The notes under the pieces are model-generated. The model saw only the letters and a program-made list of their open reading frames with translations. It had not been told where the DNA came from and did no database searches. A stretch of DNA of 64,000 nt from Luteibacter sp. Sphag1AF (GTDB lineage: Bacteria; Pseudomonadota; Gammaproteobacteria; Xanthomonadales; Rhodanobacteraceae): assembly GCF_014192715.1 (NCBI RefSeq), contig NZ_JACHYH010000003.1, positions 124,001 to 188,000 on the forward strand, written 5' to 3'. Both the position numbers and the translations under genes were made by a program. Below, in pieces: positions 12,597 to 34,523 of the stretch; position 1 is the stretch's first letter, and each line of letters opens with the position of its first letter.

Positions 12597-13787
<1,191 letters not shown>

Positions 13788-29453: not shown

Positions 29454-30644
<1,191 letters not shown>

Positions 30645-30709
30645 GCGCGCTAACCCCGGTGGAGTCAAACAAGGAGAGGATTACAACGAGAATCGGAATC
30701 TTTTAGAGA

Positions 30710-31150: not shown

Positions 31151-31645
31151 TCAAGCTGACGGTTTTTGCCGAATGGCCGTCACCAGGGGCTCGGTGGCCC
31201 GGGTCATTTCCAGCAGCTTCAATGCATATTCCTGAAGGCGCCGATCGGAATCGTCTACCGGCAGCCACGGCGGAACCGGCGTGGGCTTGCCCCCGTCCGG
31301 ACGATCCAGCGCCACGAACACCATGACGCAGCTGGTCGCCAGGCGCTCATCCCCGCTGCGCAGATCGCGTGCCAGGACGTCCACCGCAAGGTGCATGCTG
31401 GAGGTGCCGGTGTGGATCAGGCGGGCGCGCACCGTTACCAGGTCGCCAATGAGGATGGGCGCCAGGAACTGGATGCCGCTGACCGAGGCCGTGACGCAGT
31501 ACGCCCCGCTCCAGCCCACGGCACAGGCGTAACCGGCCTGATCCAGCCACTTCATGGCCATGCCGCCGTGGACCTTGCCACCAAAATTCACATCCGTTGG
31601 CTGGGCGAGGAAGCGGAAATTCACCTCGCGTTGCGTACCCGGCAT
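31151..31645 (-). CDS. hotdog-fold acyl-CoA thioesterase, YciA-like
   Basis: The 164-residue product resembles YciA/BACH-type acyl-CoA hydrolases, which split acyl-CoA into free acid and CoA in the cytoplasm. The family pattern is seen in PTDVNFGGKVHGGMAMKWLD near residues 20-40, where the central helix of the hotdog fold begins, and GDLVTVRARLIHTGTSSM near 75. The start MPGTQREVNFRF has AAGGA 7 bases upstream; the frame is open eight codons further. It is divergent from the signalling module. Substrate chain length cannot be told from sequence. Confidence 0.85.
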   Translation of the reverse strand: MPGTQREVNFRFLAQPTDVNFGGKVHGGMAMKWLDQAGYACAVGWSGAYCVTASVSGIQFLAPILIGDLVTVRARLIHTGTSSMHLAVDVLARDLRSGDERLATSCVMVFVALDRPDGGKPTPVPPWLPVDDSDRRLQEYALKLLEMTRATEPLVTAIRQKPSA

Positions 31646-31695
31646 GTTTCGATCCTTAAGTATCGACAAACCCCCATTATGCCTCGCGTCGCTGC

Positions 31696-31724
31696 TTGCC
31701 GAGCGACCACAGCTCGCTTAGATT
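31696..31724 (+). promoter_or_regulatory. possible promoter of the partner-switching operon
   Basis: TTGCCG (4 of 6 to -35) and TAGATT (4 of 6 to -10) are 17 bases apart, 26 bases before the phosphatase ATG. On the other strand of the same gap a CATAAT box (31681-31676) could serve the divergent thioesterase. Both are moderate matches. Confidence 0.4.
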
Positions 31725-31750: not shown

Positions 31751-33667
31751 ATGGTGTTGCGCAGTGTGGCGTCTCGACTGGCGATGGGCGTCGTGCTCGG
31801 GTCAGCGATTGTCCTGCTGACCACTGGCGGACTGCTGCTGATCCACACCCGCGAGCAGGTACTGGACCAGACCCAGCAGGAATACCTCGCCCTGGCCTCC
31901 TCCGCCGCCCAGCGCATCCAGAACCGCATCGACGGCGTCGGCGGCGTAGCACGCGTCCTGGCTGGCGCACTGGAGTCACGCCGGGCAGAGGCTCCTGCAC
32001 TCATTCGCGACGTCCTTGCCACCAACGCCGACATCGTGAATATCACGGCCGCCTTCGTACCTCGCGACAGCGGCGCGCTCGTTCCCGCCGACGCGCCCGT
32101 GGCCCGACGGGACCGCGAGGGCCACATCGAGCTCACCAGCCGCGTCGGGGAGCCGGAAATCTACTGGTCCGCCCCGTGGTTCATCCGTGGCCTCAATTGC
32201 GACCGCGGGTGCTGGCAGCCCCCATTCCGCCCGACCGACCGCGACGAGCGCCTGATGGGCTATTCGGTCGCCATCCCCGGCACCACGGTCCCCGTCCAGG
32301 GCGTGGTTGACGTCACTGTCAGCATGGCCTGGCTGCAGACGGTGCTCACCGAGTTGGAAAAGACCCCGCACGCCTACGCATTTGTTCTGGACGGCCACGG
32401 CAACTTCCTGGCCCACGAATGGATGACCTATATCAACACCCAGGCCAGCCCGGCACTGCTCAAGGCCATGGCCGGCAGCCGTGGGCGGCCCGTCCGGATC
32501 ACACCGGAAGACGGGGCGCGCATCAGCGAGCCGGTATGGGTGTATTTCGTGCCCGTGAAGGGCACGGACTGGACCTTTGGCCTCACCGTGCCAGAACAGC
32601 AGATCTACGCTGGCGTGCGCCGCAATTTCATGGTCGACGTCGGACTTGGCATGGTCACGCTGCTTGGCGTGTTTCTCATCGCCATCGTGGCCGCGCGGCG
32701 CCTGATGGCACCGCTTGGCGTACTGGCCGACCGCGCCGAACACGTGGCGCGCGGTGAACTGGATTTTGCGCTGCCCACGTTGCGCGGCGACGATGAAGTG
32801 GCACGACTCAACCGCGCGTTCGACGACATGCGCCGGCAATTGGCCGTCCATATCGACGGCGCCAAACGCATCGCGCGCGATCAGGCACGCATGGCCAGCG
32901 AACTTGAAATTGCCCGGCAAATCCAGCTTGCGCTGCTGCCGGATGCTCATTACGTGGCCGATAACGGCCAGCTCGAACTGTACGCCACACTGCGTCCGGC
33001 AAGCGCTGTCGGCGGCGATCTCTACGCCTATTTCGCGCTCGGCGCCCAGCACCTTTGCGTCATGGTGGGTGACGTTTCGGACAAAGGCATTCCCGCTGCC
33101 CTCTTCATGGCGCGCACGATCACCCTGGCCCGCACGATGGCCACCCATGCACGCTCCCCGAAAGACATCCTCGCCGTCCTCAACCGCGAACTGTGCAAGG
33201 GCAACGACACCTGCATGTTCGTCACCCTGCTTTGCGGCGTGATCGAAACCGGCACAGGCATGCTGACGCTGGCCAGCGCCGGCCACGAGCAGCCGGTGCT
33301 GCATGCCGGCGGCACGGCGATACTGGTGGACGTGGAAACCGGGCCTGCGCTCGGGCTGGACCCGGAAGCGAGTTATCCTGTGCGCGTACTCACCCTGCTG
33401 GAGGGAGATACGCTCCTCATGTACACGGATGGCGTAAGCGAGGCACACAACGATACTCAGCGCCTCTATGGCGCTCAGGCGCTGCTGGACAGCGTGGCAC
33501 GGGTCGAGGGAGGGGCAACCCCTGAGGCCTATGTGGAACGCATCCTGAGTGACGTGGACAGCTACGTGGACGGTCAGGCGCCCTACGACGATATTGCGCT
33601 TCTGGCCCTCACCTGGCGGGAAGCACGCAGCGAAGGGGTCCGCATCCATGCGGTTGCACATTCGTAA
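31751..33667 (+). CDS. membrane sensor PP2C-type (SpoIIE) serine phosphatase with HAMP domain
   Basis: The 638-residue product looks like an RsbU/SiaA-type phosphatase that removes phosphate from a STAS protein after an outside signal. Transmembrane segments lie near residues 8-31 and 294-316 and flank a periplasmic Cache-like sensor domain (35-290). A HAMP linker (317-370), a coiled stretch and the phosphatase domain follow. Metal-binding aspartates are in GGDLYAYF (Asp423), GDVSDKG (Asp441), YTDGVSEA and YDDIALL, so activity should be intact. The ATG has GGGA 7 bases upstream; the next gene overlaps by 20 bases. Confidence 0.9.
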   Translation: MVLRSVASRLAMGVVLGSAIVLLTTGGLLLIHTREQVLDQTQQEYLALASSAAQRIQNRIDGVGGVARVLAGALESRRAEAPALIRDVLATNADIVNITAAFVPRDSGALVPADAPVARRDREGHIELTSRVGEPEIYWSAPWFIRGLNCDRGCWQPPFRPTDRDERLMGYSVAIPGTTVPVQGVVDVTVSMAWLQTVLTELEKTPHAYAFVLDGHGNFLAHEWMTYINTQASPALLKAMAGSRGRPVRITPEDGARISEPVWVYFVPVKGTDWTFGLTVPEQQIYAGVRRNFMVDVGLGMVTLLGVFLIAIVAARRLMAPLGVLADRAEHVARGELDFALPTLRGDDEVARLNRAFDDMRRQLAVHIDGAKRIARDQARMASELEIARQIQLALLPDAHYVADNGQLELYATLRPASAVGGDLYAYFALGAQHLCVMVGDVSDKGIPAALFMARTITLARTMATHARSPKDILAVLNRELCKGNDTCMFVTLLCGVIETGTGMLTLASAGHEQPVLHAGGTAILVDVETGPALGLDPEASYPVRVLTLLEGDTLLMYTDGVSEAHNDTQRLYGAQALLDSVARVEGGATPEAYVERILSDVDSYVDGQAPYDDIALLALTWREARSEGVRIHAVAHS

Positions 33668-34076
33668 TCGTTTGCACGAAGTTTTCGACGCGCTGGACCG
33701 CGCCGACGACGCTCTGGACGTCGACTCGCTGGACCCGTCATTCCGCGCCGACATCCGGCTGGTACTTGAGGAACTGATGGTCAATACCGTTCGCCATGGC
33801 TATCCGGACGGCCGCGAAGGCTCCATCGTGATCCACCTCGACATCTCTCCGCCGCGCGTCAAGGTGGAACTGCGCGATGACGCCATGCCGTTCGATCCCT
33901 TAAGCACCGAGGCACCCGACCTCCCCGGCGACCTCGCCTGGCGCGAGACGGTAGGTGGGTTGGGCGTGCACCTCGCCCGCAGCATCGCCAGCGACATTCA
34001 GTACGCACGCGACGGTGACAGAAACCACGTCACCCTCCTCTTCGACCAATCCCAATCTGAAGAATCCCCCGCATGA
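33648..34076 (+). CDS. RsbW-like anti-sigma-type serine kinase (HATPase)
   Basis: The 142-residue product is a lone GHKL ATPase domain. The N box is LVLEELMVNTVRHGYP, with the catalytic-base Glu (41 or 42) and Asn46; the G1 and G2 boxes are DDAMPFDPL and GLGVHLARS. Proteins of this size act as kinases that phosphorylate a STAS partner and release it. The ATG lies inside the phosphatase gene with AAGGGG 9 bases before it, and the stop overlaps the STAS start as ATGA. The true target, a sigma factor or another output protein, is not in the window. Confidence 0.85.
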   Translation: MRLHIRNRLHEVFDALDRADDALDVDSLDPSFRADIRLVLEELMVNTVRHGYPDGREGSIVIHLDISPPRVKVELRDDAMPFDPLSTEAPDLPGDLAWRETVGGLGVHLARSIASDIQYARDGDRNHVTLLFDQSQSEESPA

Positions 34077-34471
34077 GCCTGAACCTTCGCAGCGAAAGCC
34101 CCACACCCCAGCGAAGCATGGTCTGGATGGACGGCCGGCTGGACGCGGAAACCTATGCCCAGTTCGACGAAGCCATGCGCGATGTCACGCCCATGGTGGA
34201 CAACGGCGGCACGCTGGTACTGGATCTTTCCGGCCTTGAATACATCAGCAGCGCCGGCCTGCGCAGCCTCGCCCAACTGCGCAAGGCGATGCACGACCGC
34301 GCGGGCCGCACACTGCTTCTCAATCCCACGCCACAAGTGCGCAAGGTGTTTGAAATCGTGAAGGCCGTGCCCATCGCGGAAGTGTTCGCAGATGTGGCAG
34401 AACTGGATCAGTATCTGGACCTGATGCAGAAGCAGGTCACGGCACAGCAGGCGGAACTGCCCAAGCCCTGA
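34073..34471 (+). CDS. STAS-domain anti-sigma factor antagonist (RsbV/SpoIIAA-like)
   Basis: The 132-residue product is a single STAS domain. The segment LVLDLSGLEYISSAGLRSL has Ser60 at the place of the phosphorylated serine of SpoIIAA and RsbV. It should be phosphorylated by the ATPase encoded just before and dephosphorylated by the membrane phosphatase, so the three genes form one partner switch. Its start overlaps the kinase stop by 4 bases. A strong bidirectional terminator follows. Confidence 0.88.
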   Translation: MSLNLRSESPTPQRSMVWMDGRLDAETYAQFDEAMRDVTPMVDNGGTLVLDLSGLEYISSAGLRSLAQLRKAMHDRAGRTLLLNPTPQVRKVFEIVKAVPIAEVFADVAELDQYLDLMQKQVTAQQAELPKP

Positions 34472-34489: not shown

Positions 34490-34523
34490 CAAAAAAATGG
34501 CCCGTTTCCGGGCCATTTTTTTT
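34490..34523. terminator. bidirectional terminator between the STAS gene and ychF
   Basis: ATGGCCCG and CGGGCCAT form an 8-base-pair stem with a TTTC loop (GAAA on the other strand), flanked by a seven-base A run and an eight-base T run. It works on paper in both directions and ends the partner-switching operon and the ychF transcript, whose stop codon lies in its T run. Confidence 0.92.

Follow-up and report, generated by a model that had tools for sequence, protein, structure and literature searches.

What does a bacterial partner switch control when no target gene lies beside it? This question is raised by three overlapping, co-directional genes on the forward strand of a 64,000-nucleotide stretch of DNA from the soil gammaproteobacterium Luteibacter sp. 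Sphag1AF (hereafter the window; contig NZ_JACHYH010000003.1, positions 124,001 to 188,000). The genes occupy positions 31751-34471 and encode a Cache-HAMP-SpoIIE membrane phosphatase of 638 amino acids (aa), an RsbW-like serine kinase of 142 aa and a STAS-domain antagonist of 132 aa. Judged by its domains, the trio is an RsbU/RsbW/RsbV-like partner switch of the orphan sort, with a SpoIIE/PP2C phosphatase, a GHKL serine kinase and a STAS antagonist bearing an acceptor serine in one operon. It is probably a one-input switch that works on a target other than sigma-S, the gene for which lies elsewhere in the genome. More tentatively, the output may be no sigma factor at all, and the C-terminal segment of the STAS protein may serve to switch a different kind of effector in a genome that lacks RpoS. 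The partner-switch kind itself is already known; new are the findings that the genes are inherited together, that they were fused and split repeatedly, and that sigma-S is excluded.

Domains and motifs of the three proteins

The phosphatase gene (31751..33667, plus strand) encodes a membrane sensor with a transmembrane segment (assigned by eye), a double Cache domain at about residues 30-285, a HAMP domain at 314-364 and a SpoIIE/PP2C domain at 433-622, of which SpoIIE (5.5e-50) and HAMP (7.4e-11) pass their Pfam cut-offs. The Pfam dCache_1 match of 31.5 bits lies below its cut-off of 45. The AlphaFold2 model of residues 30-285, with a mean pLDDT of 90.6, matches dCache sensors at Z scores of 20-23 across nearly its whole length (for 3li8, structure comparison gives a Z of 23.1 and an rmsd of 2.6 across 233 residues) and is a clear double-Cache fold; a profile search with the periplasmic part retrieved 3lic at an E-value of 1.4e-31. 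Among the best-matching folds are receptors of the choline, amino-acid and polyamine types, which differ little in Z score. The motifs GGDLY, VGDVSDKG, YTDG and YDDIA are present in 23 of 23 Luteibacter genomes. So is a C-x3-C cysteine pair within the Cache domain (NCDRGCW, 32198..32212, plus strand), which is found in most Rhodanobacteraceae versions (additionally L093-L096 and L053-L056) and is absent from the other nine rows of the alignment; the simplest reading of the sequence would be a periplasmic disulphide, and a redox or metal role may also be considered. Other sensor arrangements occur among relatives. In one genome of the same family (G023, L060:7623-9251), a fused phosphatase-kinase has a short membrane front only and no large periplasmic Cache domain, which was either lost or never acquired. 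In the Pseudoxanthomonas group (L097:5456-9995, L059:8429-12987), tandem Cache-HAMP-SpoIIE receptors carry a kinase on the second only, giving two sensors for one kinase and STAS protein.

The kinase gene (33648..34076, plus strand) encodes a GHKL protein of the HATPase_c_2 family (Pfam 9.9e-21, over cut-off) with a sequence match to RsbW in the Protein Data Bank (PDB; 6m36, E 6.4e-5), and its N box LVLEELxVN and the GGLG motif are present in all 23 Luteibacter genomes. The product of the third gene (34073..34471, plus strand) belongs to the STAS/STAS_2 families (Pfam STAS 2.1e-14, over cut-off), and its nearest PDB sequence relatives are SpoIIAA-type proteins. The motif ISSAGLR with Ser60 is likewise kept in 23/23 genomes; Ser60 is the likely acceptor serine and stands at the position phosphorylated in SpoIIAA. 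The three identities given in the original prediction, a Cache-HAMP-SpoIIE phosphatase, an RsbW-like kinase and a STAS antagonist with Ser60, are thus borne out by Pfam, the AlphaFold2 model and the motifs. Multiple STAS genes occur in relatives of the locus: in Pseudoxanthomonas two tandem STAS genes lie behind the kinase (L099:10001-10848, L101:10001-10781, L102:10001-10795), and a deltaproteobacterial locus (L106:5978-9998) holds two STAS genes, an opposite-strand SpoIIE receptor, a substrate-binding-like protein and a partial HATPase.

Conservation, inheritance and gene fusion

The trio is present in all 23 Luteibacter genomes examined, with dN/dS values of 0.10-0.22 in nine comparisons (three genome pairs, each compared for all three genes). 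Since the reading frames, a 20-nucleotide (nt) overlap between the first two genes, the motifs and an upstream promoter-like site are kept in 23/23, chance is excluded. The earlier description as a self-contained partner-switching module is supported. In a wider set of 61 genomes (the own genome and 60 relatives), a strong phosphatase match was found in 32 and a strong STAS match in the identical 32, while 29 had neither. This count covered the phosphatase and the STAS protein, leaving the kinase out, and its cut-offs were placed at visible gaps (phosphatase E ≤ 1.9e-50, the next match being 5.9e-33; STAS 140.7 bits, the next being 71.8); many of the 29 non-holder genomes do show lower-scoring matches to SpoIIE, Cache, HAMP or STAS. 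On this sequence distribution, the trio is inherited as one unit, vertically kept and widespread. A class-wide STAS search gave matches in at least 18 of 369 genomes at E ≤ 1e-12 and at least five matches above 100 bits, own included, which are lower bounds, as at most 11 candidates were scored per genome.

A single reading frame encodes both phosphatase and kinase in nine further genomes of the order (G033, G025, G034, G032, G043, G053, G037, G023 and G059); the kinase of G053 was missed by BLAST with the window kinase and was read from the translation instead. A collection scan, of which the best 80 of 505 loci were kept, provided 18 loci with named records in which all three parts were found. 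Eight of these are fused (Rhodanobacter, Oleiagrimonas, two Dyella, one Pseudoxanthomonas, Cyanosarcina, a Desulfobulbaceae metagenome-assembled genome (MAG) and Pseudohalioglobus) and ten are split (Luteibacter, two Xanthomonas, three Pseudoxanthomonas and four other MAGs), so that a split confined to Luteibacter was rejected. The label changes at least six times on a maximum-likelihood tree of 35 rows, and its well-supported branches alone force six changes; the tree is unrooted, includes 10 of the 23 Luteibacter genomes and has six long branches flagged. The split Luteibacter form is nested in a fused Rhodanobacteraceae clade and is therefore derived, provided that the root is outside this clade. 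In L137 and L142 it is the kinase and the STAS protein that are fused. Given these natural fusions, it is very probable that the three proteins work on one another, with tethering being optional.

Search for a target beside the unit

Ten flanking proteins were scanned in the window, namely NusG, SecE, EF-Tu, a 4HBT thioesterase, YchF, Pth, L25, Prs, a frame with GNAT and GHMP-kinase domains and a TPR protein; tuf, the thioesterase gene, ychF, pth, rplY and prs form the near flanks. Neither a sigma factor nor a diguanylate cyclase was found among these ten proteins, and the earlier statement that no sigma factor lies beside the module is therefore confirmed. The window holds two EF-Tu genes (12597-13787 and 29454-30668), as is usual in gammaproteobacteria.

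The original prediction had suggested a search for conserved fourth genes beside homologues. This was carried out on 905 open reading frames (ORFs) of at least 90 aa within 6.5 kb of 22 loci, compared at an E-value of 1e-5; the loci comprise several close relatives, some flanks end at contig ends (mostly in Rhodanobacter, G025, G034 and the Desulfobulbaceae MAG), and the listings of 19 loci were also inspected by eye. Six ORF groups crossed clades: the 4HBT thioesterase (7/22 loci), its antisense frame and four two-locus groups, named by eye as a TonB-receptor-like protein, a fragment, an aldo-keto reductase and a LysR-type regulator. Beyond the thioesterase and its antisense frame, nothing occurred in more than two of the 22 loci across clades, so that no conserved fourth gene emerged. 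The thioesterase (31151-31669 in the window; L061:10745-11410) is found in six Rhodanobacteraceae loci and in G059, which belongs to another family, and is divergent in Luteibacter and co-directional in G059; it is a weak lead. Profiles for GGDEF and for sigma region 2 were built from domains of the own genome. The former detected four of four control genes and no GGDEF protein among the 905 ORFs, and the latter found one of one control. Among the orthologues seen, the lack of an adjacent target is the rule and not an oddity of this genome.

A sigma factor or another effector as output

With the target encoded elsewhere, the kinase could follow the logic of Bacillus sigma-B. It would be an anti-sigma factor and hold back RpoH, FliA, an ECF factor or RpoD, encoded in trans, until the unphosphorylated STAS protein captures the kinase. 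This is a possible reading, although a somewhat doubtful one. The closest solved relatives by sequence, SpoIIAA-type and RsbW proteins, agree with it, and 15 sigma-70-type factors are available in the genome: four are named by NCBIfam cut-off (RpoD, RpoH, FliA and RpoE) and 11 are ECF-type by our own grouping, with one RpoD-like protein only. An ECF-type sigma gene also lies within 6.5 kb in 2 of the 22 loci, 2.2 kb downstream of the unit and near a TonB-receptor-like gene in L093 (6398-6985), and 6 kb upstream in L104 (1026-1655); however, neither is adjacent to the unit or shared between clades. The sigma factors that such kinases are known to bind, sigma-B/F, sigma-S and SigC, have no counterpart here, save perhaps FliA and RpoH.

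Sigma-S can be excluded for Luteibacter. No RpoS-like protein (at least 330 bits) was found in the 23 Luteibacter genomes, one of which (G007) has a completeness of just 80%; the top match in each is about 290 bits in a frame of RpoD length, which in the own genome is RpoD by NCBIfam. RpoS-like proteins scoring 331-400 bits occur in 11 of the 61 genomes, 3 of them among the 32 holders of the unit. The threshold of 330 bits is our own, the curated cut-off of 378.7 being passed by three of the 11 (the remaining eight lie at 331-377), and the score that follows, 298, belongs to a frame of RpoD length. Within the family, RpoS-like proteins are present in none of 28 holders and in three of nine non-holders. 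A mutual exclusion of RpoS and the unit is not claimed, because 23 of the 28 holders are of one genus and three holders outside the family have an RpoS-like protein. In passages of PMC8693919 and PMC3771888, RpoS in Xanthomonas is not mentioned. The FliA search covered 20 genomes, two of the 23 from Luteibacter included, and gave matches above its cut-off in 14; 11 of the 20 are holders, and 8 of these have such a match, the three without it being G033, G043 and G053. As G033 holds the unit and lacks both RpoS and FliA, FliA is not necessarily the output. Of the alternative sigma factor that had originally been considered as a target, sigma-S therefore falls away and other sigma factors stay; what is left in Luteibacter is RpoH, RpoD, FliA, the ECF factors or a non-sigma effector.

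The last of these is the reading tentatively preferred here. We infer the enzyme activities, the direction of signalling, the ligand and the output as follows. A small molecule would be bound by the periplasmic double-Cache domain and, via the HAMP linker, would raise or lower the activity of the cytoplasmic SpoIIE-type phosphatase. The phosphatase would remove the phosphate of Ser60 of the STAS protein and the RsbW-like kinase would restore it, so that the ratio of phosphorylated to unphosphorylated STAS protein would set the partner bound by it, and hence by the kinase. By means of its C-terminal segment, KVFxIVKAVP..EVF...ELDxYLDxMQ, the STAS protein would then act on an effector that is not a sigma factor; the segment is conserved from Luteibacter to cyanobacteria and acidobacteria, and its end (ELDxYLDxMQ) is kept across phyla.

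In one form of this output, the STAS protein would switch a c-di-GMP enzyme or another effector and thereby influence biofilm formation or motility. This is conceivable and no more firmly held than the sigma-B logic. SiaC-SiaD and SypA are precedents for such an output. Another, from gammaproteobacteria, is HsbA-HsbD, the phosphorylated HsbA binding HsbD according to passages of PMC6482189. The conserved C-terminal segment fits such a role, and 21 GGDEF matches in the genome are possible targets in trans; on the other hand, no diguanylate cyclase adjoins the operon, the ORFs around the 22 loci contain no GGDEF domain, and no fusion to an output domain was seen among the 48 STAS frames measured in the best 80 of 505 loci. 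Five of these frames exceed 170 aa, with a HATPase in two and nothing recognised besides STAS in three.

Several points weigh against the preferred reading as a whole. The G1 box of the window kinase reads DDA, and in such kinases the consensus is DxG; the Asp is kept and an Ala stands in the Gly position, so that the claim of fully intact catalytic residues is upheld for the key motifs in 23/23 genomes and calls for a caveat at this glycine. In the collection scan, the conservation of the STAS C-terminus partly reflects how the loci were picked, because KVF[DE]I was one of the search patterns, and the role of the segment could lie with the phosphatase, the kinase or folding and not with an effector. 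The two ECF-type genes near homologous units speak for a sigma output, as does Slr1861, a cyanobacterial kinase of similar context from the phosphatase-kinase-STAS icfG cluster of Synechocystis, which passages of PMC12329169 describe as an anti-sigma factor for SigC. Between a STAS protein that switches a non-sigma effector and a kinase that sequesters a remaining sigma factor, the first is slightly favoured, the readings being nearly equal.

Comparison with known systems

The unit shares its three protein types with RsbU-RsbW-RsbV of Bacillus, as well as the position of the acceptor serine in the alignment to SpoIIAA/RsbV. Unlike the sigma-B system, it has a membrane Cache sensor in place of the RsbT-binding domain, no sigma-B gene adjoins it, and the RsbW equivalog models give the kinase 26 and 24.5 bits, below their cut-offs of 145 and 155. 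All parts of Rv1364c of M. tuberculosis, which has the same phosphatase fold and provides the second-best PDB sequence match (3ke6), lie in one soluble polypeptide. The icfG cluster (IcfG, Slr1861 and Slr1856/Slr1859) and HmpU-HmpW-HmpV of Nostoc likewise combine phosphatase, kinase and STAS protein, and in passages of the respective papers no sigma gene is named among them (PMC12329169; PMC8256260). A cyanobacterial locus of our collection (L107) has the trio with a STAS protein 47% identical. In Synechocystis, Slr1861 acts on SigC in concert with a further STAS protein, Ssr1600 (PMC12329169), whereas Luteibacter has one RpoD-like protein only and thus no second RpoD-like sigma factor of the SigC type. 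The target of HmpV is described as still open in passages of the Nostoc work (PMC8256260).

Among gammaproteobacteria, CrsR-CrsA of Shewanella and HsbR-HsbA of Pseudomonas comprise phosphatase, kinase and STAS protein, with phosphatase and kinase fused as in the sister genera of Luteibacter. HsbR has a receiver domain, and both CrsRA and HsbRA act on RpoS (PMC6482189, in part), whereas the Luteibacter phosphatase is a Cache-HAMP membrane receptor without a receiver domain and RpoS is absent. SiaABCD of Pseudomonas, to which the original prediction had pointed for a diguanylate cyclase target, also has a HAMP-PP2C membrane phosphatase and a small phosphoprotein. The SiaA equivalog model, however, gives the Luteibacter phosphatase only 53.2 bits against a cut-off of 700, the kinase and its substrate belong to HATPase_c_2 and STAS, and no SiaD-like cyclase is found among the ten flanking proteins, so that the likeness is functional only and a SiaABCD-type system is not supported. 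On family scores, domains, neighbours and the absence of RpoS, the unit is not a SiaABCD, HsbRA/CrsRA or stressosome operon. Among the open-licence literature matches listed, none is a study of the phosphatase-kinase-STAS unit in Luteibacter or Xanthomonas.

RsbR, RsbS and RsbT, the parts of the RsbRST stressosome, are not in the Luteibacter operon, but such a cluster exists elsewhere in the same genome. On contig C1 of G000 at about 1,180.8-1,186.3 kb (L068:8854-14332), an RsbR-like STAS gene, RsbS- and RsbT-like genes, an RsbX-like HATPase-SpoIIE gene, a histidine kinase and a hybrid regulator are assembled into what looks like a gammaproteobacterial stressosome module, the labels being ours. 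Also in this genome, a small STAS protein with DSSALG lies near a receptor-like gene and chemotaxis genes (L069:4269-4574). That the unit feeds this second partner-switch set, with its RsbR/RsbS/RsbT/RsbX-like proteins and histidine kinases (C1:1181-1186 kb), is improbable: the cluster is at hand, but Cache and HAMP are the sole front domains recognised on the phosphatase, the two sets lie on different contigs, and docking studies report strong phosphatase specificity in passages of PMC11418112.

Junctions and flanking signals

The overlap of the phosphatase end and the kinase start (33648..33667, plus strand) is exactly 20 nt in 23/23 Luteibacter genomes, with the kinase always in the same, +1, frame. 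A programmed frameshift across it was judged unlikely, because inspection by eye showed no slippery run and the kinase starts at an ATG of its own, preceded in most Luteibacter genomes by a Shine-Dalgarno-like purine run (GGAG or GGGG). The kinase and STAS genes overlap by 4 nt in 22 Luteibacter genomes and by 1 nt in one (L026). The promoter-like site upstream of the operon is TTGCCG-17 nt-TAGATT (31696..31724, plus strand), and the pattern TTGNNN-(16-18)-TA[AG]ATT recurs upstream in 23/23 genomes (spacer of 17 nt in 22 and of 18 nt in one) and only once in 4600 mononucleotide shuffles; the alignment was already in view when the pattern was chosen, and a stricter consensus scan gave no promoter-like site. 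Downstream, a strong hairpin with A and T runs on its flanks (34491..34522; -20 kcal/mol, z -4.5, equalled by 0/200 shuffles) is probably a two-way terminator shared with the convergent ychF, to judge from its sequence, and is absent from the output of the terminator/promoter pattern scan.

Implications

As fused and split versions of the unit both occur in nature, it can readily be tested whether the kinase needs to be tethered to the phosphatase. The target, if found, would explain the persistence of the unit without a neighbouring target, and would show which role partner switching plays in gammaproteobacteria without RpoS such as Luteibacter.

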